Shown piece by piece: positions 5,688 to 44,022 of a stretch of 64,000 nt of DNA. A model generated the notes under the pieces. That model searched no databases. It was not told the DNA's origin and saw only the letters and a list, made by a program, of their open reading frames with translations. Within the stretch, counting starts at the first letter, position 1, and every line of letters begins with the position of its first letter. Made by a program: the position numbers and the translations under genes. Source of the stretch: a virus; the IMG/VR virus record IMGVR_UViG_3300010334_000023, positions 62,001 to 126,000 of that record. One strand, given 5' to 3'.

Positions 5688-7319
<1,632 letters not shown>

Positions 7320-17810: not shown

Positions 17811-18262
17811 CAACGGGTCCTCTTGGTCTTGGTTTTGGGCTTAGTGATATATATGTCACTTTCAGTAAGGATCCTGAAGGTCATTCCGTTCTTCTTACAA
17901 TAGGTCATTGCCGCTGCCCATTTAGCTGTGTTGAGTATGAGGCTTACCTTGTCTCGCTTGCTCTTGGCATTCTCAACCATGGCTTCCTTGGCAGGTTTGA
18001 CTTCTACTATCTCTGCTCGCCTCTTGCCATTCTTGTCTTGGTATAGTATCATGAAATCTGGCACATATTGGCTGGGTTTGCCGGTTAGAGGATTTGTATA
18101 GGGTATGCGTATGCTCTCACTGGCCCACTGTATCACACTGGGGTGGCTGTCAAGAAAGTTCATCACAGTCAGTTCCCAGCTGCTACGGAACGTGACTTCC
18201 TGCTTGCCTATCAGCTTTGCTGGATTCTTCGGTATGAATCGCCCTTGGCTGTACTTAGACAT
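17810..18262 (-). CDS. 4: gp4-like head completion protein (nuclease fold)
   Basis: 150 aa. N-terminal SKYSQGRFIPKNPAKL and RSSWELTVMNFLDSHPSV are typical of the T4 gp4 (50/65) head-completion family. The PD-(D/E)XK-type residues Glu30, Asp69 (VPDF) and Glu87-x-Lys89 (VEVKP) are in place, as in TnsA-like nucleases. In T4, loss of gp4 gives heads that cannot join tails, and it may trim DNA at the filled head. The C terminus is strongly basic (KPKTKTKRTR). The start at 18262 overlaps the end of the radical-SAM gene by 8 nt. Confidence 0.85.
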   Translation of the reverse strand: MSKYSQGRFIPKNPAKLIGKQEVTFRSSWELTVMNFLDSHPSVIQWASESIRIPYTNPLTGKPSQYVPDFMILYQDKNGKRRAEIVEVKPAKEAMVENAKSKRDKVSLILNTAKWAAAMTYCKKNGMTFRILTESDIYITKPKTKTKRTR

Positions 18263-19424
18263 TGCTATAACCTTCTAGACATGCAGATAATTCTGGATTG
18301 ATCATTTTCAAAGATGTCCTTCTCAGGGAATCCAACCTATCATTGTATTCGCTGAACATGCTGAGCCACACCGGAAGCGGTATGGTAGCTGGCATGCTTA
18401 GATGATTAGTTATAGCCGATATCACAGACTTGTGACGCGGGTAGTCAGCAGATCTACGTGTATATGAATCTATCAGTGCTTGTTTATAGACAGTGGGTAG
18501 ATTGCGTGCGTCTAACATGGGCGGATGCTTACACAGTATCACAGAAAGCTTGCTGATGTGAGGGTTGAGTTCGCTATCTACCCAGTCTAAGAGGTCTAAC
18601 ATAGCATGTGCGTTATACAAGCTGAAGACTGAGGTTATTTTTGCCTTCACGCGAGCATTTTTCGCACAAATATCTCGTAGATTCTTGGTCACAGCCGAAA
18701 CCCTATCCCAGGTACTGTCGGATCTTATGTAATCATTCAGCTGACCAAACGCGTCTATGCTACAGTCTATCTTAACTTCGCGCAGCACAGAGAAGTATGA
18801 CTGCATCTCCTCGTTCAGGTCATGAGTCATGTTGCTGCTCATGTGCAGCTGTAAGCGAGAAATATTTCCGTGATTAGCAACTTGAATCAATGCTTCTATT
18901 ATGCGTGCTTGATGCATCATTGGTTCACCACCGAGGAACTGTAGTCTCTCTGTGTTCTTAGCAGTTTCTGCAGACAGATACCATCCAGATTCTCGCAAAC
19001 CTACCGATAGCTGTCCAAGGGATATAGCATCTGATAGCCAACTAGTCGAACTGGTTTGATTACATGATCTACATTTGATATTACAGATGTTGTTCAGATT
19101 TACATCCTGGCTCATCAACGTTGGTTCTGCGGAAAAATCCACACCTATGAGATCTGCAAGCTCGAATGACCATGTCCTATGGCTGTAACCCTTGACCTGC
19201 TCATTGAACTCGCAGGTTTTACAATAGCGATGTCCTTGACCCTGCTTGAATTGTTGCCGTAGATTTTCCATGTAATCTGTATGGATGTACCCATCAATAT
19301 CACATTCGGGAACACTATCCGGCCATTTGCAGCAGGGTTTTAACTGGCCATCGGTTTCAATACGACCGTGAAACCAAGGAAAAGCACAGTAAGGTCTGTT
19401 AGCTGTTTGAGATGGCTGCTGCAA
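18255..19424 (-). CDS. Radical SAM enzyme with N-terminal SPASM/twitch-like cluster (copy 1)
   Basis: 389 aa. The CxxxCxxC cluster that binds the SAM-cleaving [4Fe-4S] is CNIKCRSC (Cys114/118/121) with FLGGEP at 163-168. Ahead of it is a Cys-rich region with the CxxPW...G...CC pattern (Cys13, Cys31/32) and CxxC at 68-71, a permuted auxiliary-cluster module. Such proteins modify peptides, sugars or cofactors by radical chemistry; substrate unknown. The only start that keeps Cys13 is TTG 19424, inside the preceding virion gene, without a clear ribosome site. It overlaps gene 4 by 8 nt, so it is embedded in the late operon. Homologous to the three radical-SAM genes at 22.3-27.6 kb. Confidence 0.85.
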   Translation of the reverse strand: MQQPSQTANRPYCAFPWFHGRIETDGQLKPCCKWPDSVPECDIDGYIHTDYMENLRQQFKQGQGHRYCKTCEFNEQVKGYSHRTWSFELADLIGVDFSAEPTLMSQDVNLNNICNIKCRSCNQTSSTSWLSDAISLGQLSVGLRESGWYLSAETAKNTERLQFLGGEPMMHQARIIEALIQVANHGNISRLQLHMSSNMTHDLNEEMQSYFSVLREVKIDCSIDAFGQLNDYIRSDSTWDRVSAVTKNLRDICAKNARVKAKITSVFSLYNAHAMLDLLDWVDSELNPHISKLSVILCKHPPMLDARNLPTVYKQALIDSYTRRSADYPRHKSVISAITNHLSMPATIPLPVWLSMFSEYNDRLDSLRRTSLKMINPELSACLEGYSNV

Positions 19425-21680: not shown

Positions 21681-22277
21681 TTAACCTGCTTGTGGACCGC
21701 TACCGCTAGCACGTACACGGCTTGGCATGATGTCTTGATCCTGCGTTGCGTTATCGTAGCGCACAGTCAGCGTGATCATCATCGATTCGCTGTTGCTATA
21801 GTCAAAGCTGTCATAGGCCACAGTCTCGAGATAGCAGCCTTCGAGATACCAGTTCTCGAGAACCCCACTGTCTGATCCATCTAAAGTTTCAATCTGAGTA
21901 GCAAACTTGTAGTTGATACCAGCAAGGAATGAAGTCTGTGTAAAGTGGTTCATCTGCTTCTGCAGCTGATACGATGTCAGGTAGCTTACGCTGTTTGTAA
22001 CATCATCGCGTACAGTGATTTCAATGCTCTGCCATTCTGGTTTCTGAGCCACATACATCACGTTGTTGTAGCTGTGGATCGGTGTGCTGTTGTGTTGGAT
22101 GCTGGGGCGTCCGCAGGTTGCTACCTGTGTGGTTAACGCGATAGCTGCATTCGGTGGTCCAAAACCCTGCATGCTCACCCTGAAGCGATATTTCAGCTTC
22201 GGCATGAGGATGCCACGCCCTGTGGTTCCTAATTGGGTCGGTACACCAAAACTCTGCAAGGTTGGGGTAAAGGCCAT
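21681..22277 (-). CDS. 19: gp19 tail tube protein
   Basis: 198 aa with the gp19 pattern: MPKLKYRFRVSMQGFG near residues 25-40, a central strand-rich region (YVAQKPEWQSIEITVRDDV), and a C-terminal strand set containing ENWYLEGCYLETVAYDSFDY then MMITLTVRYD. It polymerises into the inner tube through which DNA passes. Start ATG 22277 has AGGAG 8 nt upstream and a late element at 22302-22308. It ends with its own terminator, suggesting high, independent expression, as expected for a major virion protein. Confidence 0.88.
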   Translation of the reverse strand: MAFTPTLQSFGVPTQLGTTGRGILMPKLKYRFRVSMQGFGPPNAAIALTTQVATCGRPSIQHNSTPIHSYNNVMYVAQKPEWQSIEITVRDDVTNSVSYLTSYQLQKQMNHFTQTSFLAGINYKFATQIETLDGSDSGVLENWYLEGCYLETVAYDSFDYSNSESMMITLTVRYDNATQDQDIMPSRVRASGSGPQAG

Positions 22278-22334: not shown

Positions 22335-23462
22335 TCAGATCAGCTTGCGGCTCTTTGGTATCTTGCTGTCTGCGCTGCTCACACAGGCGCTGCTAATGCA
22401 GGGCATTGGACCATCAAATAGCTTGAATCCGGTCTCAATGTAACCAAGTGGTTTATCGGCGCAACTATAGCTGCGCTTTATAGCTCCATCAGGCTCGCGT
22501 ATGATGATACTACGAAACCCACTTTCGCAATCCCAGCCATTGAATTGATTGAAATTGAAAGCATTGAATCGTTCAGCCTGGTCCATGTACCATTTCTTGC
22601 CAGTATCGTCTTCAAATTCTACCTGCATGATCTGCGGTACTGATGCGTCATCGCCGTTTGACACACTCATCTTTGCCATGCTGATCTTGGGCTTTGGCCG
22701 CTCTACCTTGGATTTAACCGTGGTAAAATCGCGCTGCGGCATGCCGTTGTGCAGTGTAGCAAGCTGATCCTTGGTATATCCTTCTACTACCTTGCTGGCA
22801 GTTGGATCGCTCTGTGGTTTTAGTGTTACGTTGATACCGCGACCCAGGAAGTATTCTGCTTCAGCATAGAGAGTATCAAACCATTCTGGCACCATGACGG
22901 TGTTCACGGTTACCTGTATGTCGTTCTCCTGCAGGAAAACCAGTTTGTCAGCAAACTTCTCTGTGTGACCTTTGAGATCACCTTGCTTGATCCCCTGTTC
23001 TCGATGCCAGCTAGCCGTCACGCTCACACGGTGCAGATCTTTGGTAGCATCAACGTATTTCTCGAACCAACGCAGCCCTTGGCTGATATTTGAAGTCATG
23101 TGCACGCTCTGATAGTTGCAGTTAGCAGTATCTTGGCTATAGTGCTCTAGCAGTCTTAGATAATCAGGATATACAGTCGGTTCGCCTCCGCTGAAACTGA
23201 AATGAAAGCTATTGTAACCTCGTTCTCTGCTCTGTCGCTTGATCTCATCCATGGTCATGAGGTTAAGCTCTATGGGACGATAATCTTTGGTGTTGCTGCG
23301 TGCGTATGGCCAGCAGTAGCTGCAGTTGTAGTTGCAGTATCGACCAATCAACCAGCTCACGCAGAATATATCACGATATAGCAGGGTACGCTGACCAAAT
23401 CTGGTTATCTTGTCGAATGGTATCTTGGTGAAATCATAGGAGCTAACCGCATCATTTGCCAT
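22335..23462 (-). CDS. Radical SAM enzyme with C-terminal SPASM-type cysteines (copy 2)
   Basis: 375 aa. The core CxxxCxxC motif is CNYNCSYC (Cys43/47/50) with FSGGEP at 91-96. The C-terminal 80 residues hold Cys in the order expected for a SPASM auxiliary cluster (near GWDCESG, RSYSCADK and PCISSAC). It has the usual N-to-C order (core first), unlike the other three copies. Members of this group modify peptides (sactionine/quinone-type maturases) or sugars; the substrate here is unknown. Last gene of a five-gene cassette; overlaps the SDR gene by 11 nt, with AGGAG before ATG 23462. Cytoplasmic, late-expressed by context. Confidence 0.9.
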   Translation of the reverse strand: MANDAVSSYDFTKIPFDKITRFGQRTLLYRDIFCVSWLIGRYCNYNCSYCWPYARSNTKDYRPIELNLMTMDEIKRQSRERGYNSFHFSFSGGEPTVYPDYLRLLEHYSQDTANCNYQSVHMTSNISQGLRWFEKYVDATKDLHRVSVTASWHREQGIKQGDLKGHTEKFADKLVFLQENDIQVTVNTVMVPEWFDTLYAEAEYFLGRGINVTLKPQSDPTASKVVEGYTKDQLATLHNGMPQRDFTTVKSKVERPKPKISMAKMSVSNGDDASVPQIMQVEFEDDTGKKWYMDQAERFNAFNFNQFNGWDCESGFRSIIIREPDGAIKRSYSCADKPLGYIETGFKLFDGPMPCISSACVSSADSKIPKSRKLI

Positions 23463-24012
23463 TTACGTTCTCCTGTATGGGATCTATGCTTAGCTCGTTT
23501 ATGTTTAGGTTAGCAGGTTGGTCAACCATCCATTTCACATACTGTGCCGCTTGATCAAGCTCCATGCAGGTCCTCGAAGGATGCTTGTGCTGCACGTTAC
23601 TAAGCGAGCCCACGCTCAGCAATGACACCTTGGGTCCACCTCCCCAGGTGCTCAATAATCCAAGGCTGTTGCAGAAATCTCGCAGTGATTTCTTTTCATG
23701 TTGATAGGTCCAATCGCTGCCTTTTGAAGTGCGATCCGCGGTGCTACCAATGCTAATGATATGCAGCTGATGTTTGTGATCTCGAGCAACTGCGTAGACT
23801 TCTCGGAGCAGCAGCGTCTGTTGAAACTGCCACAACGCACTGTTATTGATGAAAACATCGTATTCCAGTGCCAGCTGTGCTAGATCCCTGCGTCGTTGAT
23901 CTTTATCTAGATCCCAGCCATTTGCTCTACTAACGAAGCTAGCATCTGGCCAAATGCCGTGCATTGACTGTGCTAAACCCTTAGTTGGATTACCAGTAAT
24001 CAATATCTTCAT
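23452..24012 (-). CDS. Short-chain dehydrogenase-like NAD(P)-binding protein
   Basis: 186 aa. It starts MKILITGNPTKGLAQSM, a Rossmann beta-strand and nucleotide-binding turn. VFINNSA (residues 53-59) matches the SDR NNAG region, HIISIGSTAD (84-93) supplies the catalytic-Ser strand and Tyr103-x-x-x-Lys107 is the SDR catalytic pair. It is shorter than classical SDRs (about 250 aa), so substrate-binding elements are reduced. Probably an oxidoreductase or epimerase acting on the product of neighbouring enzymes. Start ATG overlaps the preceding radical-SAM stop (ATGA) with GAGGG upstream: tight coupling inside the cassette. Confidence 0.8.
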   Translation of the reverse strand: MKILITGNPTKGLAQSMHGIWPDASFVSRANGWDLDKDQRRRDLAQLALEYDVFINNSALWQFQQTLLLREVYAVARDHKHQLHIISIGSTADRTSKGSDWTYQHEKKSLRDFCNSLGLLSTWGGGPKVSLLSVGSLSNVQHKHPSRTCMELDQAAQYVKWMVDQPANLNINELSIDPIQENVNGK

Positions 24013-25325
24013 AGGTAACCCTCCATCTCTGGTACCACATCTACTAATTTCTGCGATCTAATAGCATCCATCTTGGCTGTGAATGATACAAAAATATTCC
24101 AATGAGCCTCATGTAGATCCCCACTGGTCATGTATTCGATCACGCTACTGCAGATGTTCTTGCTGCTAGACACCACGTTCTCAGGAAAACCCTGATCCAC
24201 CACCCAATCATGGAAGTCATTGAATCTATTGGTCACTAGGTCTTTGAGATCTTGTGGCAGCACCCTTATGTTGAGATGTTTGGGGTGATGTGCTACATGA
24301 TGCGTCACGATTGGTTTCTTGATGGTGTTATTGAACTTGTTGAGACCGCTCTGTCCAAGCTTCCATCTCATGAAATCTGGCATGTGCAGCACGTTGTAGG
24401 CAGTCACGGTGTAAGCGAACCAGGCCTGGACGTTTTCAGGGGCTTCGTCGACCCTGTATATGTTTCGCAAAACCTTGCTCCAATCTGACGGATATCTTTG
24501 ATATTCCTGCATAGCACCGTATCCATCTATGCTAGCTCCTATCTGTATGGTCTTGAAATGAGTCCACAGATCGAGCACTCTGCTTGGTATGCTGGTCATG
24601 TTGGTGTTATATTCAACTACCATGTTGCCAGCTGCTCCATTCTCTATGCAGCGTTCTAGGAATTCATAGTGTCGCTCTATCAGCAGAGGTTCGCCTCCTG
24701 CCATGTAGACATGCTGCACGTTGCCAGCATTGGCTTCGATCTGCTGCCAGAAACTCTCGCTGTTGTGCCATCCATAGCTGTTGCTTATCCATTTGCCATT
24801 TGAGCGATGCATATGCTCGCGACCGTGCGTGTCGTTGAACCAGTCAACATCATACAGCTTGTTCCAGTCATCATACCAACCAGTGCTGTCCTGAGGTCCG
24901 CACATGCGGCATGCCAAGTTGCAGAGGTTTCCAAATCGTAGATCATAATATACCACAGGCAACGCTTCTGTATCGATGCTGCCATCTTCTGCGGTATGGG
25001 CTAACATTTTAGTACGCTGGTTCTTCCATCTATATGTCTCATATTTCCGACGGCTATCTAAGCCAGCGTCTTCCTCGCTCTTGCACCTGCCACATTCCTC
25101 GCTCCATATGCCCTGCATCATGTTCTTTCGCATGCCTATCAACAAAGCGCTGTTGCGAGCAGAGACCAGTTCGTCAGATGCTGCGTTATAGGGTGTACCA
25201 TCTGGTTTGCGAATCACGCCCTTGTTCTGCGTGATGTTGGCCTGGCAACATACCCTGAGATCGCCGTTGCTCCTCACTGCTTGAAAGTTCCAGGGAATAG
25301 GGCACCACGTGTCTGACTTGCTCAT
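24009..25325 (-). CDS. Radical SAM enzyme with N-terminal SPASM/twitch-like cluster (copy 3)
   Basis: 438 aa. N-terminal WCPIPWN, NGDLRVCC (Cys8, Cys26/27) and ECGRC (Cys78/81) form the permuted auxiliary-cluster module. The core CNLACRMC (Cys135/139/142) and MAGGEPLL follow, at exactly the same residue numbers as in copy 4. The C-terminal third is helical. It is a paralogue of copy 4 and more distantly of copy 1. Start overlaps the PLP-enzyme stop by ATGA, and its own stop overlaps the SDR start by ATGA. Substrate unknown; two such paralogues side by side suggest two related steps or a heterodimer. Confidence 0.9.
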   Translation of the reverse strand: MSKSDTWCPIPWNFQAVRSNGDLRVCCQANITQNKGVIRKPDGTPYNAASDELVSARNSALLIGMRKNMMQGIWSEECGRCKSEEDAGLDSRRKYETYRWKNQRTKMLAHTAEDGSIDTEALPVVYYDLRFGNLCNLACRMCGPQDSTGWYDDWNKLYDVDWFNDTHGREHMHRSNGKWISNSYGWHNSESFWQQIEANAGNVQHVYMAGGEPLLIERHYEFLERCIENGAAGNMVVEYNTNMTSIPSRVLDLWTHFKTIQIGASIDGYGAMQEYQRYPSDWSKVLRNIYRVDEAPENVQAWFAYTVTAYNVLHMPDFMRWKLGQSGLNKFNNTIKKPIVTHHVAHHPKHLNIRVLPQDLKDLVTNRFNDFHDWVVDQGFPENVVSSSKNICSSVIEYMTSGDLHEAHWNIFVSFTAKMDAIRSQKLVDVVPEMEGYL

Positions 25326-26221
25326 ATCCTGCCCTGCTTCCTGGCCTTGACAAGTCCGCGTATGCCCAATCGGTTGTGATCACCGACGGCAAAATCATTC
25401 CATTCTGGTCCACCGAGAGCAATGTGCATGCACTTGGTAGGCGTGATACCAACTTCGGCACAGACTTCAATCTGCGATTGCCTATATTTGGCAGGAATGA
25501 AATCAGGCGTTTTCAATTCCTGCATGAAGTATATGCCAACCTTGGCAGCTCCGAGCACTGTGTGATTGTATCTGTTCTGCTGGCATATTGGCAGATCATC
25601 GTCAATGTTGCTGTAACGAATGCCACTGCGTATGTGTCCTGTACCTGTGCCTTTGGTAAGACTAAAGCTAACGCTCTCTATAGCTGGGTGATCCACGCTC
25701 AGTTGAACATCCACACAGGTGCCTATGTATGCGCAGTCAACTATGACCGGAACCTTGAGATCTGCGCATCTGTCCAGCATGGCATAGAATCCCTGCGGTA
25801 CATCCCCTGTTGTCGCATGAGGTACGCTGACTATGACATAGTCGCCCTGCTCTATCGGACCGTCCTCTATGTGCTTCCAATCCTTAACGATGCGTGCGTG
25901 ATAGGCATATTCACCTCGATACATGCGCAAACGCCTAGAAGCGTGTCGGTGGTAAGCTTCATCAAAGCTCTGAGTGGTACCATTTATCAGATGATGCTGT
26001 TTGAAACGTTCAAGCCCTATAACCTTACTAAGACGCATGTTTCCAAGGTAGAGCTTATAGGTATCTAGATATTCTAACCTGCAATCTAATGGATCGCCGC
26101 CATCCTGGAACCATTCTTGCCACGGCAGTGATTTGAAAAGATCCACGAACCGTACGTCATAAACAGCAGCAGTCTTCTTGCTGATCATGCCGCTATCTAC
26201 TAGTGATTGCTTGTCCATCAT
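25322..26221 (-). CDS. PLP-dependent aminotransferase-like enzyme (fold type I)
   Basis: 299 aa. VIVDCAYIG (Asp162 and Tyr165) gives the Asp that contacts the pyridine nitrogen, SFSLTKGTGTGHIRSG supplies the Schiff-base lysine (Lys190) and the phosphate-binding Arg198. This is the signature of class I/II aminotransferases. It is shorter than typical enzymes (about 390 aa) with a reduced N-terminal arm, so substrate scope may be unusual. ATG 26221 overlaps the radical-SAM stop, and its stop overlaps the next radical-SAM start (ATGA both sides). Likely installs or removes an amino group in the pathway run by this cassette; a decarboxylase or lyase role cannot be excluded. Confidence 0.82.
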   Translation of the reverse strand: MMDKQSLVDSGMISKKTAAVYDVRFVDLFKSLPWQEWFQDGGDPLDCRLEYLDTYKLYLGNMRLSKVIGLERFKQHHLINGTTQSFDEAYHRHASRRLRMYRGEYAYHARIVKDWKHIEDGPIEQGDYVIVSVPHATTGDVPQGFYAMLDRCADLKVPVIVDCAYIGTCVDVQLSVDHPAIESVSFSLTKGTGTGHIRSGIRYSNIDDDLPICQQNRYNHTVLGAAKVGIYFMQELKTPDFIPAKYRQSQIEVCAEVGITPTKCMHIALGGPEWNDFAVGDHNRLGIRGLVKARKQGRI

Positions 26222-27582
26222 CTGTTAGTATCCTTTATCACGTCATAGAATTCTGGCAGGCTATCCTGCATGCTCTCAGATCGTATTTTATCCAACCTAT
26301 CAGTGAATCTCCAAAACTTAGGCATGAGCTCTGCCTGATCCGCAGCTAGCATAAAACGTTGCCACTGATCGAGATGCTGCGTGATACCAGCTATCAGCTC
26401 ATCTCGGCGAGCATGATCATCGTCATAGAGTTCGCAAGCAAGCTTGATCAGCTCAGGCAATCTGCGGGCAAAATGCTCTACTACTTTCTGTTTTTCTGCC
26501 GGTGGCAAGGTTCTCGCATTTAGATGCTTTGGTCCATACAGAGGATGAAAGAATATCAGCGGACTGTTTGGTGTGAAACCAAACCTCTTGTACTTTCGGC
26601 GCATGAACCATTCCAGAGTGTCAGGTATGTACCAGATGTTGTATATCATGATCGTGCTGGCGATCCAGACCACAAAATTGATATCTGTGGCAGAATCTAT
26701 CCTATCTAGGTTCTCTTCGATCATGTGCCATCGGCAGGGGTGTCGTATGTAGTCATTGACCGGTCCAATGCCGTCAACGCTGGCTCCGATCCTAACTTCT
26801 CTAAAATGCCGCCACAGATCCCAGGCCACCGGTGGTATCTTTACTACGTTGCTGTTGTATTCGATGATGATGTTCTTGCTGATACCCATATCGATGCAGC
26901 GTTCGAGGAACTCCCACTGTTGATCAATGAGCATGGGTTCGCCACCAACTGTGTGTATGTGCTGTATGTTTTTGGCATTCCTAGAGATGTGATCCCAGAA
27001 CAGAGGTGACTCATACCAAGTGTAACCATCTGTGTCTGGTACTAATCTGCCACTATCATCTCTTGACAGTGTTACCTTTCCAAAGCTTTCATCATATTGG
27101 TGAGTGTTCCACAGGGCTACATAGTCTTCGTACCAAAAATTGCTTTCTGTTGGGCTGCACATCCTGCATTTCAGGTTACACTTGTTGCCAAATCTCACTC
27201 CGTAGTGCATGACTGGGCAAGACTCATTGGATATCTGTCCATCATCACAGGTCAGCTGCTTGGCCATATCAACAGTGAACCTATCAGACCACAGCGTGGT
27301 TTCTGTCTGGTTCCTGCTTATCAAACCACCTTTGCTTTCATTCTCGCAGCGTCTACAAGCCGGATTCCATCGGCCTGCCAGCATGTCCAAACGTATCTGC
27401 CGCAGTAAGGAGCTGTTGCGAGCATCTTCTATCATGTCTAACGTGGCGTTGAAGGTGCTACCGTTTGATTTGCGTAAGAGCCCATTATCAGCACCCTGCT
27501 GGCTATGCGAGCACACGCGCATGTCTCCGTTATTGCGGATATCTAGGCTGATCCAAGGCAGTGGGCACCAATTACATGACAT
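26218..27582 (-). CDS. Radical SAM enzyme with N-terminal SPASM/twitch-like cluster (copy 4)
   Basis: 454 aa. Starts MSCNWCPLPW; auxiliary-cluster cysteines Cys6, Cys24 and CRRC (76-79) precede the core CNLKCRMC (Cys135/139/142) and TVGGEP. Co-linear with copy 3, with a longer middle segment. First enzyme of the cassette: it lies 35 nt after a small helical protein gene that carries the late element at 27914-27920, so the whole run is probably one late transcript. ATG 27582 lacks an obvious ribosome site; a TATACT stands just upstream. Substrate unknown. Confidence 0.9.
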   Translation of the reverse strand: MSCNWCPLPWISLDIRNNGDMRVCSHSQQGADNGLLRKSNGSTFNATLDMIEDARNSSLLRQIRLDMLAGRWNPACRRCENESKGGLISRNQTETTLWSDRFTVDMAKQLTCDDGQISNESCPVMHYGVRFGNKCNLKCRMCSPTESNFWYEDYVALWNTHQYDESFGKVTLSRDDSGRLVPDTDGYTWYESPLFWDHISRNAKNIQHIHTVGGEPMLIDQQWEFLERCIDMGISKNIIIEYNSNVVKIPPVAWDLWRHFREVRIGASVDGIGPVNDYIRHPCRWHMIEENLDRIDSATDINFVVWIASTIMIYNIWYIPDTLEWFMRRKYKRFGFTPNSPLIFFHPLYGPKHLNARTLPPAEKQKVVEHFARRLPELIKLACELYDDDHARRDELIAGITQHLDQWQRFMLAADQAELMPKFWRFTDRLDKIRSESMQDSLPEFYDVIKDTNR

Positions 27583-27617
27583 GTGCTAGTATATCACAGC
27601 TACTGGCTGCTCCATAA

Positions 27618-27908
27618 TCAAGCGTGGCCAATATGCCCATAGACTTCAATGTCAGTGAGCTTGCTCACCTCAGTGATCTGGTCCTTTATCAACCGATTTA
27701 CCAGCTTTAGATTCTGCTTTCTGCTGGCAGGATCTAACTGACCAATGATGTGTCCTAGATTCAAGCTCAGCACTGTGAGCAGGATCTCATTGGCCAGCTC
27801 TGAGCTCGTATCTGTTTCCAGCTTGCTATGCATTCCAGCTAGATAGGTGTATAGGGCCGCGCTGATATCATTCTTGAAAGAGTCAGCAATCTTATCTTGA
27901 TCAGTCAT
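27618..27908 (-). CDS. Small helical protein at the head of the radical-SAM cassette
   Basis: 96 aa, almost wholly amphipathic helix (ADSFKNDISAALYTYLAGMH, ANEILLTVLSLNLGHIIGQL, KQNLKLVNRLIKDQI). Could be a small carrier, adaptor or substrate protein, or unrelated. Directly precedes the radical-SAM operon. Its ATG at 27908 is 5 nt from a late element (27914-27920), with no Shine-Dalgarno between. Contains no Cys, so it is unlikely to be a classical thioether-type precursor. Function unknown. Confidence 0.65.
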   Translation of the reverse strand: MTDQDKIADSFKNDISAALYTYLAGMHSKLETDTSSELANEILLTVLSLNLGHIIGQLDPASRKQNLKLVNRLIKDQITEVSKLTDIEVYGHIGHA

Positions 27909-27913
27909 GACAA

Positions 27914-27920
27914 TATTTAA
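27914..27920 (-). promoter_or_regulatory. Late promoter of the radical-SAM cassette (TTAAATA)
   Basis: Minus-strand TTAAATA 5 nt before ATG 27908. It is the only promoter candidate I find upstream of the cassette after the sheath terminator. Confidence 0.5.
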
Positions 27921-27987: not shown

Positions 27988-30900
27988 TTATACGTTGATG
28001 TTGTTGCTACCGTTTGGTAGCGGATCTGCGTCATTCAACACCCTGATTGGTATGTAGATGAACTCGATCGCCTTTTCTGGCTTGATAGCTATATCAACCC
28101 AAAGCTCGTTGCGATCGATCCTAATCGGTGTGTTGTTGCTGCTATCGCACACGACTGAGAAGTCGTAGAGCGCACGCAATCCAACCAAGTTACCCATGAA
28201 GCTGTTAAACGCTATGGTAACTGCCTGCCTGGTCTGAGCGTCGTTTGGCTCAAACAAGAACGGCTGTGCCAACTGCCTTAGGTTGTAAACCAAGTAGTTG
28301 ATCAGGCGCGCAACATTGACTCTGTCCAGGCTTGTGGTGATTGGATCCAAGGTCTTCTGTCCATATACAACCAAACCACGATTTGGTATGAACGTGATCG
28401 GATTGATCTTGTTCACATACAGCACGTCGCGCTGTCCTTGGTTTAGACTGACTGGCTGATATGTACCGTCTGACTTGAGGTAACCAACGCTCAATGCGCC
28501 AGCAACCAAACCACGATTGAAACCAGCTGGAGCAAACCAAGGATAAGCTACTTGGTCATTGTAAGCATATACCGTGAGTGCCATGGTGCTTGGCGGCACA
28601 AACACTTGGTTTCCGTCCAAGTTCACTTCCAGTGCCCAGGGATAGTAAACTGCTGCGTATGATGTGTGGGTTATCAAACCATCAATGCTGTCATAAGCTG
28701 CGTTGTTGGCATTGGTAGCCCACTGCTGCAGGCTAGTGGTATCAGCTGGTAGCTCTCCAGGAGGATCTGCTAGGATGAAAGCTATCTGTTGTATGTCAAC
28801 ATTGAGCAGGTTCATCTCAGCCAAGCATTCTATGTAACCCGGTGTTGCTATCAAGTTGTAGAAGATCGAATCACCGCGTATGGCTTGGTTGCTAGCAAGC
28901 GAAGCATTAAGCGCTCTAAAGACCATAGCACGCTGCGCATCTGGTCCCATGTAAGGGGTGCCATTTGGACGGTTACCGCTAGCTGTGACCCAGCAATCCG
29001 GATCATAACCTTCAGAAGTGTTCACATCTGGGAAATAATCCATATAGTACTGCTTGACATTGTAGGTGCTATAACGAGTGTTGAACAGCAACATACCAGC
29101 TGGATAAAGCTCTGCGTTAGGCGCATCGCTATCCACATAGTTGCTGACTACCATCGCGCTAGGAGCTTGGCTGCCATTGGTCTTGCCATTGTTATTGTAT
29201 CGCGCGTCAGTGAATATGATGCCCGAAGGACTGCTGTGATTGGTGTTATCGATCAGTGTCCATGATCCAGATGATCCATCGTAGCGGTATAGCACTGGAT
29301 AGGGTGTCACGCTGCTGTCTACCCAGATGTCGTTGGTAACCAATGGACTAAGGTCGCTCTGTGTGCTAGGCATGCTGCCATCTATGATTGGACCATTTGG
29401 ATCTGTAGCTGGATAGGCATTCCTATAACCCTGCCAGATCTGGCCGCTGCCGACCATAATATCAACCTGTAGGTAGGTGTTATACCATAGCGTACCGTCT
29501 GCCGGAGGTCCTACTGGATTGGTGGTGCTCGGTGTATACATCAGTGTTACCCAAGCAGAACCGTCCCATTGATAAAGAACTGTCTTGGCCGTAGCAGGCA
29601 TGTCGCCGTCATTGTTATAACGAGCATACACTGTACCGTAGGTCTTGCTAGAACCAAAAGCAGCATTGGCTACAGCATCGCTGCTGTACATAGGCACAGT
29701 GTTGGTCAGAGGATTGATATTCTGCTCCACCCATATCGTACCATTGTACTTCTTAACTACCATGTTAGCGCCGCGATCGGCTGGTGTGGTATTGATCCAC
29801 ACGTTGGTAGCAGCAGTCTGTGCCAGTGTGCTAGGTACTGTAAGAGATGGATAGTAACCCTGATAAACCATCTGTCGTCCAAACACATAGCCAACTTGTA
29901 TACCTGCGCTGTTAAGAGGAGTTCCGCTGATATCCTTCAGTATGAACTGTGTACCGTTTGTGTTGGTGATTGTGAGATGGTTGCCAGTAGACACGCTAGC
30001 CACGATCGGACCACTTGGGAAAGCAGCATTGATAGCAGAGACCACACCAGCCAACGTGTTGTTAGGTGATGCCGGCACGTAAATCGTGGTAGCTATTCCT
30101 GTGCCAGGATTGATGCTGAATGTGTCAGCAGTTAGATATGCCATGCTAACAGTGAATGTAGCGTTGGTGCCGCTGCCCCCGGTGACGCTCACCGGATTGG
30201 TAGGTGCCACCGTGTAGTTGCCAGGATTGGTCACGGTCACTGTGCCAACACCCCAGCCAATAGTCACTGTGGCATTAGTACCGTTGCCGCTGGTTGATGA
30301 AGGTGTCACAGGATTAGCTGGGACGTTGGTGATGTGCTGTCCGGGCTGTCGTATGGTCAAGGTAACAATAGAGCCGCCGCCTCCGATGCTGGCCACTTCT
30401 AGTATGGTCGGAGTCACATAGGCTGGACCATCAAAAGTAAGCGTATCGCCTTGAGCATAACCAGTTCCAGTAGCAGATATGCTAGCCGCTACAGCCTGTA
30501 TGCTAGCAACAGTCAGCACACCCGTTACGCTGTGGGTACCACCAACGACATTAAGCGTGTCTCCTGGTGCGTAACCAGCACCAGGCGCAACTACAACCGG
30601 CGCTGGCTGTGTTTGTCCTGCTATGTTGCCGTTTGATATCTCAAGCGTAGCAGCTGTGAATGTTGGATTAGCCACAGTACCTGTCACTGCTCCATAGTAA
30701 GTCTGCGTGGTTGGCATACCTGCAGTCTGCCATGGGTGTGTGGTATTTGTTTCTGTGGTTATGTCATGGAAGAAAATGTCAGTAGCATCATAGTTGGTGA
30801 TTACCAAGAAGTTGCTGCTACCAGAAGTGGCAATGCTAGCCAAGGCATTGAAACTATTGGCATCAAGAACCGAATTGATCGAAGTTACAAAGCTGCTGAG

Positions 30901-32076
30901 AGAAGTTCCCGCCACAGTGATGGTCACAGGCACTGCATCACCAATGCTTATAGTGCATTGGTTGCCTATAGTGAAGGTTGGATTGCTGACTGTGCCCTGC
31001 ACCACACGCGGTGCTGCTTCGCGCCATCCCCAACCTGGATAATCCATGTCAGTGCTGCCAACCAAGAACCACCAAGCGTCTGTGTTACCGTTAAGCGTGG
31101 TCTGTTCGATCTTCTGCCAGATCTTGTTCTCCATTAATTCGGTAGTCGGATCAGTGCTGTATGCATCAACTATGAACTCACCAACTGTGCCGTAAGCATG
31201 TATTGGTAATATGGTGTTAGTTGGCTCCGGAGTCATAAATCCGATATCCTCTAACACGTATATGTTAGAATAAAGCAGATCAATCATCGTGGTGATATCA
31301 GTGCCGGTGATGCGTAGATAGTAGAGATCTTCTATCGTAGCTACTGTTGGATCAGGCTTGCCGGTGCGAGCATAGATCGTAGCGCTAATGCCAGAGTTAT
31401 GTATGGCGTTGTTGTTGATAGCACTTGCTACATCACTGAGGCTCATGCCAACTGTCATGGGCACTGTAGTTCCATTAATCACCAAGTTACCAACATGAGT
31501 AACGGCAGGAGTGCTGGCACTGGTCAGTCCAACTGATGCCTGTACCATTATCTCGAGATCAGTTGACTTTGAAAGTGTCAACGGAGTCTTGGCGCTCCAG
31601 CTCAATGCGCTGTTAGCGTTCCCATTGCTGCTGAATATGCCCCAAGTGGTGTTTGCTGTGTCAAGCCAATATTGGTTGAGTGAAGGAGGACCTGCTGGTT
31701 CAGTGGTGCTTGGCACCATCTGCTTTAGATCAACATCCGCACGCAATACATATGCAGTGTTTGCTATACCGAGATATTGATATGCTGTGAACAGACCCAG
31801 CTCATTCAGCTGATTACCATAGTCAGGCGTGCCAGCGGTGGTGTAGAAGGTTGGAGTTCCAAACGTCTGCAGCAGATCACGTTGGCTGCTGATTAGATAA
31901 AGTTGGTTAGCATTAGCAGCAGTAGTACCGGGCGCGTAAACACCTGAGCTACCAGGTTGTAGCTTATTAGCTGCCGTAGCAATGAGAATGAGCGGGACGG
32001 TTCCAGCACCTGCGCTAGCATATACGCTTTCATCTGTGACTGTGACGCTTACGCCGGGTGATACTAGGGTTGCCAT
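27988..32076 (-). CDS. 18: gp18 tail sheath protein with very large insertions
   Basis: 1362 aa, about twice T4 gp18 (659 aa). The N terminus MATLVSPGVSVTVTDES and the following sheath domain are canonical. The C-terminal 300 residues (VYGQKTLDPITTSLDRVNVA, then NYLVYNLRQL, ending EKAIEFIYIPIRVLND) form the conserved sheath core that contacts the tube. In between lie Gly-rich repeats (about residues 495-645, for example GAGYAPGDTLNVVGG) like those in the two MGRP-KK proteins, and several modules with PPxxxTLWYNT or NVWINTT and Y-GS-W motifs (about 120-150 and 730-960). The extra modules probably form external tail decorations. Own late promoter (32107-32113) and terminator. Confidence 0.92.
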   Translation of the reverse strand: MATLVSPGVSVTVTDESVYASAGAGTVPLILIATAANKLQPGSSGVYAPGTTAANANQLYLISSQRDLLQTFGTPTFYTTAGTPDYGNQLNELGLFTAYQYLGIANTAYVLRADVDLKQMVPSTTEPAGPPSLNQYWLDTANTTWGIFSSNGNANSALSWSAKTPLTLSKSTDLEIMVQASVGLTSASTPAVTHVGNLVINGTTVPMTVGMSLSDVASAINNNAIHNSGISATIYARTGKPDPTVATIEDLYYLRITGTDITTMIDLLYSNIYVLEDIGFMTPEPTNTILPIHAYGTVGEFIVDAYSTDPTTELMENKIWQKIEQTTLNGNTDAWWFLVGSTDMDYPGWGWREAAPRVVQGTVSNPTFTIGNQCTISIGDAVPVTITVAGTSLSSFVTSINSVLDANSFNALASIATSGSSNFLVITNYDATDIFFHDITTETNTTHPWQTAGMPTTQTYYGAVTGTVANPTFTAATLEISNGNIAGQTQPAPVVVAPGAGYAPGDTLNVVGGTHSVTGVLTVASIQAVAASISATGTGYAQGDTLTFDGPAYVTPTILEVASIGGGGSIVTLTIRQPGQHITNVPANPVTPSSTSGNGTNATVTIGWGVGTVTVTNPGNYTVAPTNPVSVTGGSGTNATFTVSMAYLTADTFSINPGTGIATTIYVPASPNNTLAGVVSAINAAFPSGPIVASVSTGNHLTITNTNGTQFILKDISGTPLNSAGIQVGYVFGRQMVYQGYYPSLTVPSTLAQTAATNVWINTTPADRGANMVVKKYNGTIWVEQNINPLTNTVPMYSSDAVANAAFGSSKTYGTVYARYNNDGDMPATAKTVLYQWDGSAWVTLMYTPSTTNPVGPPADGTLWYNTYLQVDIMVGSGQIWQGYRNAYPATDPNGPIIDGSMPSTQSDLSPLVTNDIWVDSSVTPYPVLYRYDGSSGSWTLIDNTNHSSPSGIIFTDARYNNNGKTNGSQAPSAMVVSNYVDSDAPNAELYPAGMLLFNTRYSTYNVKQYYMDYFPDVNTSEGYDPDCWVTASGNRPNGTPYMGPDAQRAMVFRALNASLASNQAIRGDSIFYNLIATPGYIECLAEMNLLNVDIQQIAFILADPPGELPADTTSLQQWATNANNAAYDSIDGLITHTSYAAVYYPWALEVNLDGNQVFVPPSTMALTVYAYNDQVAYPWFAPAGFNRGLVAGALSVGYLKSDGTYQPVSLNQGQRDVLYVNKINPITFIPNRGLVVYGQKTLDPITTSLDRVNVARLINYLVYNLRQLAQPFLFEPNDAQTRQAVTIAFNSFMGNLVGLRALYDFSVVCDSSNNTPIRIDRNELWVDIAIKPEKAIEFIYIPIRVLNDADPLPNGSNNINV

Positions 32077-40378: not shown

Positions 40379-41242
40379 ATGAAAAAAGATCTAATCATAG
40401 GTTCGTTCACCAACTACAGCTGGGATAAGATCCAGTACTGGGTCAACAGCATAGACGCTTGCGGCTTCAAGGGCGACAAGGCCATGCTGGTTTACAATGC
40501 CGAACTGAGCACAGTTCAGAAGCTCAACGATCGAGGTTTCAAGATAATGGGATTTAGTCAGGATCCCGCCAACGGTAATCTCGTATACAATGGCCAGCTG
40601 ATCATAGTCGTAGAACGCTTCCTGCATCTGCACAGCTTCCTTGATAATCTCATGAAGAGTGAGGACTATCGCTATGTGATTCACACGGATGTCAAGGATG
40701 TGGTATTCCAGCGCAATCCCAGCGAATGGTTGGATGCCAACATGGGCAATGCTAAGATACTAGCCAGCTGCGAGAGCCTGCAGTATCAGCACGAACCCTG
40801 GGGCAACGAAAACTTACAGAACAGCTTCCCTTGGGTGTACGATAAGATGAAGACCAATCCCATATGGAACTGCGGTGTTCAATGTGGCGTACCCAGCGTG
40901 ATGAAAGATCTGTGGCTCAACATATATCTGCTTAGCGTAGGTAGCCAGCATGCTACCAAGGTTCACAATCCCGATCAAGCTGCTTACAATGTGTTGCTGG
41001 GACTAGAACCCTACAAGAGCATCACCAAGTTTACCATGAGCGAGGACGGTTGGGCATGCCAAGCTGGAACCAGTTATGATCCAACCAAGATGCATACCTT
41101 CAAACCGCACTTGCTTGAACCTCAACCAAAGTGGGATGGTGAGAATGCTACCACTAGCAGGGGGGCTAGGCATTACATACTTCATCAGTATGATCGCATC
41201 CCGGAGTGGAAACCCATAATTGAGGCCAAACATGCAGGTTAA
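40379..41242 (+). CDS. Glycosyltransferase-like protein (GT-A type), island gene 1
   Basis: 287 aa. A Rossmann-like start (KKDLIIGSFTNYSWDKIQYW) and an Asp-rich metal site YVIHTDVKDVVFQ (Asp104, Asp107) fit a GT-A glycosyltransferase acting on a sugar nucleotide. NCGVQCGVPSVMKDLW and NPDQAAYNVLLG resemble the acceptor-side helix region of such enzymes. No signal peptide or membrane segment, so cytoplasmic. First gene of a five-gene overlapping operon. No promoter was found in the 24-nt gap, so it is probably read from upstream. Donor and acceptor are unknown. Confidence 0.7.
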   Translation: MKKDLIIGSFTNYSWDKIQYWVNSIDACGFKGDKAMLVYNAELSTVQKLNDRGFKIMGFSQDPANGNLVYNGQLIIVVERFLHLHSFLDNLMKSEDYRYVIHTDVKDVVFQRNPSEWLDANMGNAKILASCESLQYQHEPWGNENLQNSFPWVYDKMKTNPIWNCGVQCGVPSVMKDLWLNIYLLSVGSQHATKVHNPDQAAYNVLLGLEPYKSITKFTMSEDGWACQAGTSYDPTKMHTFKPHLLEPQPKWDGENATTSRGARHYILHQYDRIPEWKPIIEAKHAG

Positions 41243-42197
41243 TTTACAAGAAGAATATCAGAAGGTTGACCAGATGCTGAGCAGTTTGGGCGTACCGCAC
41301 TTCAACCCAGGTCGCAGCATCGTGACCAGCGTTTACGGTAAGGAGATTGCCAGCGGTTATGTTCTAATGCGTGAGCTAGCCTTACAAGAAATCAAGCTAC
41401 CAATTGAAATATTCCATCGCAAAGGCGAGATAACACTCCAGCAAGCAGCCATACTGCGCAGCCCTGCACCTGATCAGATAACTGTGCGAGAGATACAGGG
41501 CAACGCCAAGGATTTCACTACTATCTATGGGACCAAAGCGGGTTGGAGCACCAAGATATATGCTCTATGGGAAAGCCAATACTCAGAGAACCTGTGGCTG
41601 GATGCAGATAGCTTTCCAATAAGAAATCCAGAATTCTTGTTTGATGACCAAGAATACTTGGACAAGGGTAGCTTGTTTTGGCGAGATGTTTTTAGCACTG
41701 ACCGCGCTAATCGCTATCACGACGACGCGCCAATGTGGCGCATCTTCAACGTGAATCCAAACGACGGCGAACCTTTTGAAACAGGACAGCTGCTGTTCAA
41801 CAAGGCACAATGCTGGGCTGAAATGAACTTGGTTAAACACTACGCTGACAACTGCGAGGTGTACTATCACTTTGGCGGAGATGCGGAAACATTCCGCATG
41901 GCGTGGCAACATCTAGATCTCAGAAATGGTCGACGGCCAAGCTACATCAACTACCAAGCTGACCCAATGGTGCCTTATGGATTCATGCCGTTTGGACCTT
42001 TCCACAAGGGCCACTCTAACCAATACAAGAAGTGGGGTGGCGGAACAGTGATGGTCCAGCGCGATCGCAATGGTCTAGAGCTGTTCAACCATCGCAACAT
42101 GGAGAAGTTCTCGCTTGGTAATAATCCTGTATACACTGACATAACCAATGAGCTGCGCTACCATCAGCACATACAAGACCTGAGGCGTTTGATATGA
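41232..42197 (+). CDS. Mannosyltransferase-like glycosyltransferase, island gene 2
   Basis: 321 aa. The DxD motif is in ENLWLDADSFPIRNPEFLF (Asp124-Ala-Asp126), preceded by WSTKIYALWESQY and followed by GSLFWRDVF and ETGQLLFNK, the order seen in Mnn/MNN1-type (GT71-like) and related enzymes. Soluble. ATG 41232 has GAGG upstream and overlaps the first island gene by 11 nt, so translation is coupled. Likely transfers a hexose to a protein or glycan. Confidence 0.78.
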   Translation: MQVNLQEEYQKVDQMLSSLGVPHFNPGRSIVTSVYGKEIASGYVLMRELALQEIKLPIEIFHRKGEITLQQAAILRSPAPDQITVREIQGNAKDFTTIYGTKAGWSTKIYALWESQYSENLWLDADSFPIRNPEFLFDDQEYLDKGSLFWRDVFSTDRANRYHDDAPMWRIFNVNPNDGEPFETGQLLFNKAQCWAEMNLVKHYADNCEVYYHFGGDAETFRMAWQHLDLRNGRRPSYINYQADPMVPYGFMPFGPFHKGHSNQYKKWGGGTVMVQRDRNGLELFNHRNMEKFSLGNNPVYTDITNELRYHQHIQDLRRLI

Positions 42198-43336
42198 TAG
42201 ATCAAGTTACTGCGGTGAGATTTCCTAGCGAATGGCAGATCAAGAGGCAGCCAGCACGGCCCAATATGCTACGCATTGACTACTGCGGCGGCATGAAGTT
42301 TGACGAAAACTTTGACTGGGACAACATCTGGTACGATTGTGTGCAGTTGAACGATACACAGACCATACTGATCGGTCCGCCGATCTACGAAGGCAAGCAA
42401 TGGTTTGCTGCGAACGCAGGCTTCGCAGATCGGCATGGACGCGCACTGGACTATCAGTTTTATGATCTGGACAGGGTCAGCTATACGTTAGTGCATACCA
42501 AAGGCATAGACGAGTCACTCATCATGATCAGCAAGAAAGCTGATCCAGTGCACATCGAAGTCCATCACAATGATGGATATTTTAACGGCCACAAGACCAT
42601 GGTAACCCTGCAGAAAGATAACCCAATACAATGGATTGAGCAGTGGATGGACTATCACTATCGTGTGCATGGTATAGATGGTTTCTTGATCTATGACAAT
42701 ACCAGCAGCAAGTACACGGTCAACGAACTCGAGAGCAAACTAAGCAGAGATTATCTAAAGCTGAAGATAGTACCGTGGCCTTATCCATATGGTCCGCAGG
42801 GCAGCGACAACGCACCCTGGGACAGCGACTACGGACAGTACTGCATGCTTGAACATGCCAAATATAGGTATCTCAGCCATGCGGCGTTGGTTTTGAACAA
42901 TGACATAGACGAACTGATAGTAACCAAGGGTCCTTCTTTGGACAAGATCCAATCACAGTTAGAATCTGGGCCATATCACTGCCTAGCATACCAAGGACGT
43001 TGGATTGAACCTCACGATGTACCACGTAACAAAGGCGCATATGAAGTACCATTTGAATCAAGATTGTTCAGTGATTATTGCTGCACAGATGCCAATGACA
43101 AGCGAGGTATCGGACACAAGTGGATGTTGGTACCACAGAAAAACATCAACTATCAGTGGTTAGTTCATCGCATAGCCGGACCATATGGTGTGAGCGAGGA
43201 TCTGTTCTACGGACATTATCTTGCTATGAACACCAATTGGAGCTGGGAACGCGACAAATACACTGGCAATGTCAAGGATCTAACACCTGATCCGTGGCTA
43301 CATACAGCGCTGCAGAAGATTGAGGTATATAAATGA
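42194..43336 (+). CDS. GT92/GT2-like glycosyltransferase, island gene 3
   Basis: 380 aa. QWIEQWMDYHYRVHGIDGF then LIYDNTSS (about residues 146-172) and LVLNNDIDELI (Asp237, Asp239) are the paired motifs of GT92 (DUF23) glycosyltransferases. A basic/aromatic C terminus follows. ATGA overlap on both sides (42194-42197 and 43333-43336). No membrane anchor. GT92 enzymes often add galactose or related sugars; that is a family statement, not shown for this protein. Confidence 0.8.
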   Translation: MIDQVTAVRFPSEWQIKRQPARPNMLRIDYCGGMKFDENFDWDNIWYDCVQLNDTQTILIGPPIYEGKQWFAANAGFADRHGRALDYQFYDLDRVSYTLVHTKGIDESLIMISKKADPVHIEVHHNDGYFNGHKTMVTLQKDNPIQWIEQWMDYHYRVHGIDGFLIYDNTSSKYTVNELESKLSRDYLKLKIVPWPYPYGPQGSDNAPWDSDYGQYCMLEHAKYRYLSHAALVLNNDIDELIVTKGPSLDKIQSQLESGPYHCLAYQGRWIEPHDVPRNKGAYEVPFESRLFSDYCCTDANDKRGIGHKWMLVPQKNINYQWLVHRIAGPYGVSEDLFYGHYLAMNTNWSWERDKYTGNVKDLTPDPWLHTALQKIEVYK

Positions 43337-44022
43337 AAAAGCTTTTGGTAGTAACAGGCCCGCAGGGTTCTGGCAATCACATGTGGAGCAAGGTTCTAAG
43401 TGGTACTCCGGGTGTGCGAGGCTGGGAACAGTTGCAGAATGAATACTGGGTTGGACACGGTAACGAGCCGTTCGCACTGATATGGCAAGATCCCAAGCTG
43501 TTCCATGAGATAGACTGGGAACCAGGTAATTATGTTACCAGCATCAGCTGTCCAACTGTTCCAGTGGGAGGACCTACTGCTCCCAGCGTAGAACCACCCT
43601 ATGGCGATTTCATGGCTAATGCTAAGCAAGCAGGATTTGACGTCAAGCTGGCAATCATAGGACGAGACAAGAACATCCTAGAATTCCAACAGAACAGATT
43701 GCGAGAAAACCATAGCACACCAAGATTCTTAAAACACATCGAAGTGCTGATGTCCTATGATCCTGTTTTCATCAGCACAGAATTACTGTATCTCTATCAA
43801 GACCACTATCTCAGACAACTGTCAAAGCTCTTGGATTTTCCAATCAACAATACCAATCTACCGGAGATACTTAAAGACAATACCAATCTCAAATATCTAC
43901 ACCCAGTAGAATCTTATTGGCTAGATGAACACTGTAGGACCAATTCTAGAAAAAACGGCGATCCAACTAACCCTTATGTGTATCAACCAAAAAAGAACTC
44001 CGGAGGAGAAACAAACACATGA
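43333..44022 (+). CDS. Sulfotransferase-like P-loop protein, island gene 4
   Basis: 229 aa. The first strand and loop KLLVVTGPQGSGNHMWSKVL (residues 3-22) resemble the PAPS 5'-phosphosulfate-binding loop of sulfotransferases. LAIIGRDKNILEFQQNRLRE and YLYQDHYLRQLSKLLDFP fit the later helix that carries the 3'-phosphate contacts, but no definite Arg/Ser pair can be proved by eye. A kinase role is an alternative. ATGA overlaps at both ends place it firmly in the glycan operon, suggesting sulfation of the product. Confidence 0.6.
   Translation: MKKLLVVTGPQGSGNHMWSKVLSGTPGVRGWEQLQNEYWVGHGNEPFALIWQDPKLFHEIDWEPGNYVTSISCPTVPVGGPTAPSVEPPYGDFMANAKQAGFDVKLAIIGRDKNILEFQQNRLRENHSTPRFLKHIEVLMSYDPVFISTELLYLYQDHYLRQLSKLLDFPINNTNLPEILKDNTNLKYLHPVESYWLDEHCRTNSRKNGDPTNPYVYQPKKNSGGETNT

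Follow-up and report, generated by a model that had tools for sequence, protein, structure and literature searches.

The window analysed here, a 64,000-nt stretch (positions 62,001–126,000 of IMG/VR record IMGVR_UViG_3300010334_000023), comes from a virus of bacteria in an aquatic metagenome. A leftward run of five overlapping ORFs (22335–27582), all on the minus strand, lies between the tail sheath and tail tube genes. The main features of the window, with best profile matches, are:

18255–19424, minus strand: radical-SAM copy 1 (rSAM1), N-terminal twitch family, among connector/tail genes (NF033640, 214.9 bits)
21681–22277, minus strand: tail tube gene, flanking the run (phrog_4542, E 3e-52), with TATAAATA 24 nt upstream
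22335–23462, minus strand: enzyme A (rSAM2), radical-SAM/C-terminal-twitch, 375 aa (PF04055, E 1e-13)
23452–24012, minus strand: lean SDR, 186 aa (profile match to SDR structures, E 7e-9)
24009–25325, minus strand: radical-SAM copy 3 (rSAM3), N-terminal twitch family (NF033640, 376.9 bits)
25322–26221, minus strand: fold-type I PLP enzyme, aminotransferase-like, 299 aa (profile match to valine-pyruvate aminotransferase, E 2.8e-5)
26218–27582, minus strand: radical-SAM copy 4 (rSAM4), N-terminal twitch family (NF033640, 326.0 bits)
27618–27908, minus strand: 96-aa gene, first after the sheath terminator, conserved at this place in several relatives
27914–27920, minus strand: TTAAATA element, at the same position in five relatives (L026, L029, L033, L036 and L038)
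27988–32076, minus strand: tail sheath gene, flanking the run (phrog_10581, E 1e-238)
40379–44978, plus strand: run of glycosyltransferase-like genes close to the gene for the sheath stabiliser (Mannosyl_trans3, E 4e-20; GT92, E 2e-10; phrog glycosyltransferase, E 1e-9)

A sequence-only reading of this DNA had described the five genes, their strand and their sheath and tube neighbours correctly, as well as the junctions between them (three ATGA overlaps, then an 11-nt overlap, ATGGCAAATGA). Its count for the whole span 22335–27908 overlooked the 96-aa gene, which was not found in two relatives (L024 and L025) and is therefore dispensable. The TTAAATA element that it had taken for a late element is present and conserved, but lies just 5 nt upstream of the 96-aa gene's start codon (ATG) rather than at the usual late-gene spacing: in a promoter scan, clear TATAAATA/NATAAATA elements were mostly 20–27 nt before late genes, e.g. 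the tube gene. Seven of the nine TTAAATA copies in the contig are located just upstream of ORFs. rSAM copy 1 has no counterpart at the same place in L041, while L031 and L033 carry two copies there.

Active-site residues proposed for the PLP enzyme and the SDR proved invariant among homologues. Lys190 of the PLP enzyme, within SLTKG, is unchanged in 24 homologues together with Asp162 and Ser187, giving the Schiff-base lysine and ring-nitrogen aspartate of fold-type I enzymes. In the SDR, Tyr103, Lys107, Ser90 and Gly7 are invariant across 30 sequences, i.e. the glycine motif and Ser-Tyr-x3-Lys set that define this family. The CxxxCxxC motif begins at residue 135 in rSAM copies 3 and 4, as had been reported, and at residue 43 in copy 2 (enzyme A). 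rSAM1, rSAM3 and rSAM4 all exceed the curated cut-off (170 bits) of NF033640, an NCBIfam family of N-terminal twitch radical-SAM enzymes that is named but carries no functional assignment. Enzyme A falls outside this family (35.3 bits, over the SAM core only). Its C-terminal cysteines had been assigned to a SPASM domain, an assignment that did not hold up: PF13186 gave no match, and in an alignment of 50 sequences the invariant residues are C43/C47/C50 and C312/C334/C355/C360, the latter four fitting a twitch domain with one auxiliary cluster. Viperin gave the highest fold match to enzyme A, followed by matches that include a sactipeptide maturase and an anaerobic sulfatase maturase. Viperin (pVip) is the best fold and profile match to its radical-SAM core, but enzyme A differs in having the additional C-terminal four-cysteine domain and scores far under the viperin cut-off (42 versus 180 bits, over the SAM core only). 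Membership of the viperin or MoaA families was rejected.

Comparison of the cassette with three relatives of the same gene order (L024, L025 and L045) gave pS values of 0.76–0.85, with synonymous sites near saturation, against pN of 0.06–0.29, which indicates that all five genes are under strong purifying selection and rules out chance ORFs. For enzyme A, pN was 0.06–0.10, compared with 0.14–0.24 for the tube and 0.13–0.23 for the sheath in the same relatives. The genes are intact and their order is kept, which rules out decayed inserts and runs against separate unrelated insertions with inactivating changes, the outcome named beforehand as refuting a common pathway and pursued here in part.

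At least 597 relatives of enzyme A were confirmed in IMG/VR, with ≥59% pairwise identity among 49 representatives, and none was found among the 50,697 isolate phages searched. All phage copies form one clade. Outside phage contigs, among the cellular genomes searched, enzyme A was detected in Bdellovibrionota alone (22 of 369 genomes of the phylum). Copies in MAGs labelled Rickettsiales, Gammaproteobacteria, Chloroflexi and Acidimicrobiaceae are adjoined by phage genes or radical-SAM arrays and were treated as mis-binned phage contigs; one such match (L116) is 100% identical to an IMG/VR contig. Bdellovibrionota as host of the present phage is not supported, its GroEL being closer to those of the phylum to which a MAG titled Gammaproteobacteria (G017) belongs (best score 783 bits, 67–69% identity) than to those of Bdellovibrionota (743 bits, 65–66%). 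Gene content around enzyme A differs strongly between relatives, with a mean of 5.2 radical-SAM genes per locus and up to 21 N-terminal-twitch matches in one phage record with enzyme A. The lean SDR lies directly upstream of enzyme A, overlapping it by 1–11 nt, in 18 of 67 non-redundant loci.

In Bdellovibrionota chromosomes, enzyme A recurs in one locus with two further radical-SAM enzymes, B and C, often accompanied by D, a GT-A-fold protein, or E, which is methyltransferase-like on sequence motifs judged by eye. Two of these five families have no Pfam match. B, C, D and E are also present in the cassette-bearing phage (G000), 75 kb from the cassette; its B and C have 53% and 54% identity to the proteins of one chromosomal locus (L132), and its D and E 35% each (D to L130). 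G000, like 13 of the 18 other long A-bearing viral records, has an orthologue of B (>460 bits; next score 345), with a C-type enzyme either adjacent to it or at another place in that record, so that A, B and C occur within one genome as a core shared with Bdellovibrionota. Enzyme C belongs to NF033640 (411 bits). The model of D (pLDDT 83) matched GT-A glycosyltransferases first and almost exclusively, at TM-scores ≤0.46, with the peptide-glycosylating enzyme SunS as best match; no solved structure matched E. In G000, B and C adjoin ThyX and a c5/c7/c6/c9 block, and enzyme A lies within ~8 kb of this block in 24 of the 67 non-redundant loci, which suggests that the cassette belongs to a single pathway and has been moved away from the rest of it. 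Sheath or tube genes are near enzyme A in just 9 of the 67, so its position here is a local arrangement and by itself no argument for modification of gp18 or gp19.

The account that we tentatively prefer, while rating it somewhat short of probable, is that the cassette is a relocated piece of a multi-enzyme radical-SAM pathway whose product would be an unusual, phage-variable glycan, in the simplest case one that decorates the virion. A, B and C with D and E would form the core, while variable tailoring steps would fall to the SDR, the PLP enzyme and additional N-terminal-twitch enzymes. Radical chemistry could oxidise, dehydrate or epimerise a sugar or sugar-nucleotide, which the PLP enzyme would then aminate and the SDR reduce; D-type glycosyltransferases would transfer the product, possibly methylated by E, and the glycan would be made during infection. 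The gene families, their linkage and co-occurrence, the purifying selection and the single phage clade of enzyme A are demonstrated; we infer the sugar substrate, the sequence of reactions, a virion target and late timing. The sequence-only reading had offered an amino-sugar or a virion peptide modification; a biosynthetic or tailoring pathway is supported here too, with preference for the sugar branch because the wider pathway of the same phage includes the predicted GT-A-fold and methyltransferase-like proteins, but the idea of a self-contained five-gene system falls with B–E at a distance. The glycosyltransferase-like run at 40379–44978, a possible partner of the pathway, also counts for a sugar. 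The preferred account is weakened by the minority status of the tail-adjacent arrangement and by the visual labelling of E. Twitch/SPASM radical-SAM enzymes act on peptides more often than on sugars, which, like SunS as best match of D and the low TM-scores, tells against a sugar, as does an Asp/Asn-hydroxylase-like protein (cluster c2), whose family is known mainly for protein substrates, in about half of the loci (40/80).

The prevalence of peptide substrates among twitch/SPASM enzymes and the recurrent hydroxylase-like genes speak for the closest competitor, in which radical-SAM enzymes would introduce cross-links, epimerisations or other changes into a phage protein or ribosomal peptide, with PLP enzyme, SDR and hydroxylase as tailoring enzymes. 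The maturase-type fold matches of enzyme A and the setting of the cassette among virion genes in this phage also fit such a role. A search of the arrays for a small, conserved peptide resembling a precursor found none, although precursors may be too variable to detect, and the small ORF families recovered were mostly flanking phage genes; with a GT-A-fold protein in the core and a tail position that is not general, we regard peptide modification as rather unlikely, while giving it more weight than any other alternative. It is less likely again that the pathway serves host-directed metabolism, with no virion part as its product but an altered host envelope glycan or a small molecule made in infection (for superinfection exclusion or competition). 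The chromosomal locus L132 is adjoined by genes that, by eye, encode an epimerase, an asparagine-synthase-like protein, an acyltransferase and a glycosyltransferase, so the core serves a cell there, and an enzyme-rich region comparable to that of the present phage adjoins tail-fibre genes in Pelagibacter phage Mosig; against this, the cassette here makes up a single block with the tail genes, and T4-like late promoter motifs surround that block.

A hypermodified DNA base or modified nucleotide is improbable. Some phage thymidine hypermodifications use PLP and radical-SAM enzymes, a parallel to the cassette, and the viperin-type matches of enzyme A could hint at a viperin-like nucleotide product, but these cover only the SAM core at a score far under the cut-off, chromosomes of bacteria also carry the core along with the GT-A protein, and no thymidylate-synthase-family hydroxymethylase (PF00303) was matched in the 216-kb record, which is possibly a fragment. 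Unrelated selfish or neutral inserts gathered by chance between late genes would account for the differences in gene content between relatives, but hardly for the selection on all five genes, the overlapping starts, the order kept in three relatives or the joint presence of A, B and C in 13 of 18 other long records, and are the least credible explanation.

The sequence-only reading knew of no system of such make-up in T4-like phages, which requires a caveat. Nothing closer to this enzyme combination was found in the literature than TARA_ERS488813_N000010, a T4-like environmental genome of 183 kb and thus similar size, in which 12 radical-SAM genes were reported (Nishimura et al. 2017; PMC5332604). 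The accessible part of that account treats them as Fe-S-related auxiliary genes and describes neither an A–B–C–D–E core nor a PLP/SDR cassette, nor any function, product or counterpart in bacteria. A literature search on thymidine hypermodification likewise found nothing. Among isolates, Pelagibacter phage Mosig EXVC030M (MT647606) has a run of genes for an aminotransferase (a distant relative of the cassette PLP enzyme, E 3e-6), MoaA-like radical-SAM proteins, a hydroxylase and a methyltransferase, but no protein related to enzyme A or to the SDR was found in this member of the Kyanoviridae. Vibrio phage K566/K567 (255 kb) carries three neighbouring radical-SAM genes with merely ~19% identity to rSAM3, again without a relative of enzyme A.

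More speculatively, and in our estimate unlikely, the preferred account could extend to a modular, combinatorial radical-SAM glycan factory in a large uncultured phage group, in which an invariant core (A, B, C, a glycosyltransferase and the methyltransferase-like protein), exchanged once between Bdellovibrionota and phages, would combine with up to ~20 lineage-specific N-terminal-twitch enzymes to give each phage its own sugar decoration. The logic would then be comparable to that of O-antigen diversity, but on a virus. Enzyme A itself is more conserved than the adjoining tail genes and present in hundreds of contigs of aquatic phages, yet was found in no isolate phage searched. The core as delimited here provides a concrete set of proteins for expression, a bacterial counterpart in relatives of predatory bacteria and a direct question for mass spectrometry; were the product a virion glycan, a virus would be devoting an unusually large set of radical enzymes to its own surface chemistry.

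Re-examination of the sequence bore out the placement, overlaps and motifs of the five cassette genes in the sequence-only reading, as well as their flanks (tail tube and tail sheath genes). The SDR and the fold-I PLP enzyme were confirmed by family profiles, with Ser90/Tyr103/Lys107 and Asp162/Lys190, respectively, invariant. Radical-SAM copies 1, 3 and 4 exceed the curated cut-off of NF033640 (N-terminal-twitch family); copy 2 (enzyme A, the last cassette gene) falls below it, and hence is not a member by score, and its C-terminal cysteines, previously read as SPASM-type, form a four-cysteine, twitch-like set instead. The tail sheath (window 27988-32076) is unusually large (1362 aa), with long insertions inside the protein. 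The parent IMG/VR virus record (G000; 216,498 bp, the window being its 62001-126000) carries these further features:

Window 5688-7313, phage-encoded GroEL
Window 18255-19424, radical-SAM copy 1 (N-terminal twitch, above the NF033640 cut-off)
Window 40379-44978, plus strand, glycosyltransferase run of five overlapping genes (Mannosyl_trans3, GT92, another glycosyltransferase match)
Record ~153.7-160.0 kb, D-type (GT-A-fold) domains and one E-type (methyltransferase-like) domain, preceding B and C
Record 160246-161352, radical-SAM enzyme B
Record 161349-162743, radical-SAM enzyme C

TTAAATA (window 27914-27920), kept in several relatives, lies 5 nt upstream of a 96-aa gene, and a conserved hairpin resembling a terminator stands ahead of it, downstream of the sheath gene, an arrangement that would fit the cassette being a separate, possibly late, transcription unit. 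TATAAATA/NATAAATA elements are found mostly 20-27 nt upstream of late genes. Of the nine TTAAATA copies in the G000 contig, seven sit no more than 70 nt ahead of an ORF, four of these at a distance of 3-11 nt, which suggests a class of promoter whose transcripts are leaderless or have very short leaders.

The IMG/VR scan identified at least 597 confirmed relatives of A; tblastn at E 1e-5 detected none in 50,697 isolate phage records. The lowest pairwise identity is 59% (49 representatives drawn from the 80 loci kept). In relatives retaining the tail region, pN of A is 0.06-0.10, compared with 0.13-0.23 for sheath and 0.14-0.24 for tube, synonymous sites being near saturation in the same comparison. 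Whole cassette order is retained in phage relative L025, and in L024 and L045 within contig reach. One radical-SAM cluster, built by single linkage and possibly including a few non-members, comprises 411 genes across the 80 loci (mean 5.2 per non-redundant locus), which also carry SDR, PLP, Asp/Asn-hydroxylase-like, QueC-like, desaturase and B12-type radical-SAM genes. Up to 21 N-twitch matches are present in a single long viral record with A. An 889-aa frame with two tandem N-twitch radical-SAM matches, apparently a natural fusion, was seen at L103, L105 and L106 (records G387-G389).

ThyX and the conserved c5/c7/c6/c9 block lie directly beyond B-C in this phage, and the same block is found no more than ~8 kb from A in 24 of 67 other loci, from which we infer that A and accompanying genes were relocated from the ThyX-block region to the tail operon of this phage lineage. 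A B orthologue, clearly set apart by score, was found in 13/18 other long viral records with A, most with a C-type enzyme nearby, although these records may be fragments.

Neither D nor E matches Pfam, NCBIfam or PDB sequences. An AlphaFold2 model of D (pLDDT 83) matches GT-A glycosyltransferases with modest TM-scores, and E, read by eye, resembles a SAM-dependent methyltransferase. A 615-aa protein (L018 8581-10428; G000 154581-156428) appears to contain several D-type GT-A domain repeats. Chiefly because of D and the glycosyltransferase run, located after a sheath-stabiliser-like gene, a sugar or glycan pathway is the best-supported reading, albeit as an inference. Peptide or protein modification is a competing reading to be taken seriously. 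Fold matches to A cover the shared radical-SAM core only: viperin ranks at the top, followed by maturases of sactipeptides and sulfatases and by MoaA. DNA modification as the product is weakened by the absence of any PF00303 match in the 216,498-bp record.

Nishimura et al. 2017 (PMC5332604) reported 12 radical-SAM genes in one T4-like genome, and phage Mosig and Vibrio phages K566/K567 offer looser parallels. No description of the A-B-C-D-E core was found in the openly accessible journal papers searched.

Among 84,980 genome species scanned, 25 loci carry A, mostly in Bdellovibrionota MAGs; 22/369 genomes of that phylum match. Contigs L116, L128, L135, L137 and L138, in MAGs labelled Rickettsiales, Gammaproteobacteria, Chloroflexi and Acidimicrobiaceae, are apparently mis-binned phage. 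Bdellovibrionota loci are flanked by ordinary chromosomal genes (L130, for example, has a UvrD-like helicase and pilus genes, read by eye), and A is accompanied by B (~360 aa, C-terminal cysteines) and C (~470 aa, N-twitch), joined by D or E in several genomes. Phage B and C share 53-54% identity with proteins of chromosomal locus L132. The phage GroEL is closer to the set from the phylum of G017 (a MAG titled Gammaproteobacteria) than to Bdellovibrionota, and this comparison does not support Bdellovibrionota as host. A maximum-likelihood tree built from 74 A proteins has phage and Bdellovibrionota rows split on one branch (95/89), with phages nested within Bdellovibrionota under midpoint rooting (used for drawing only). 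Such a topology would fit a single exchange of A between Bdellovibrionota and phages, in either direction.
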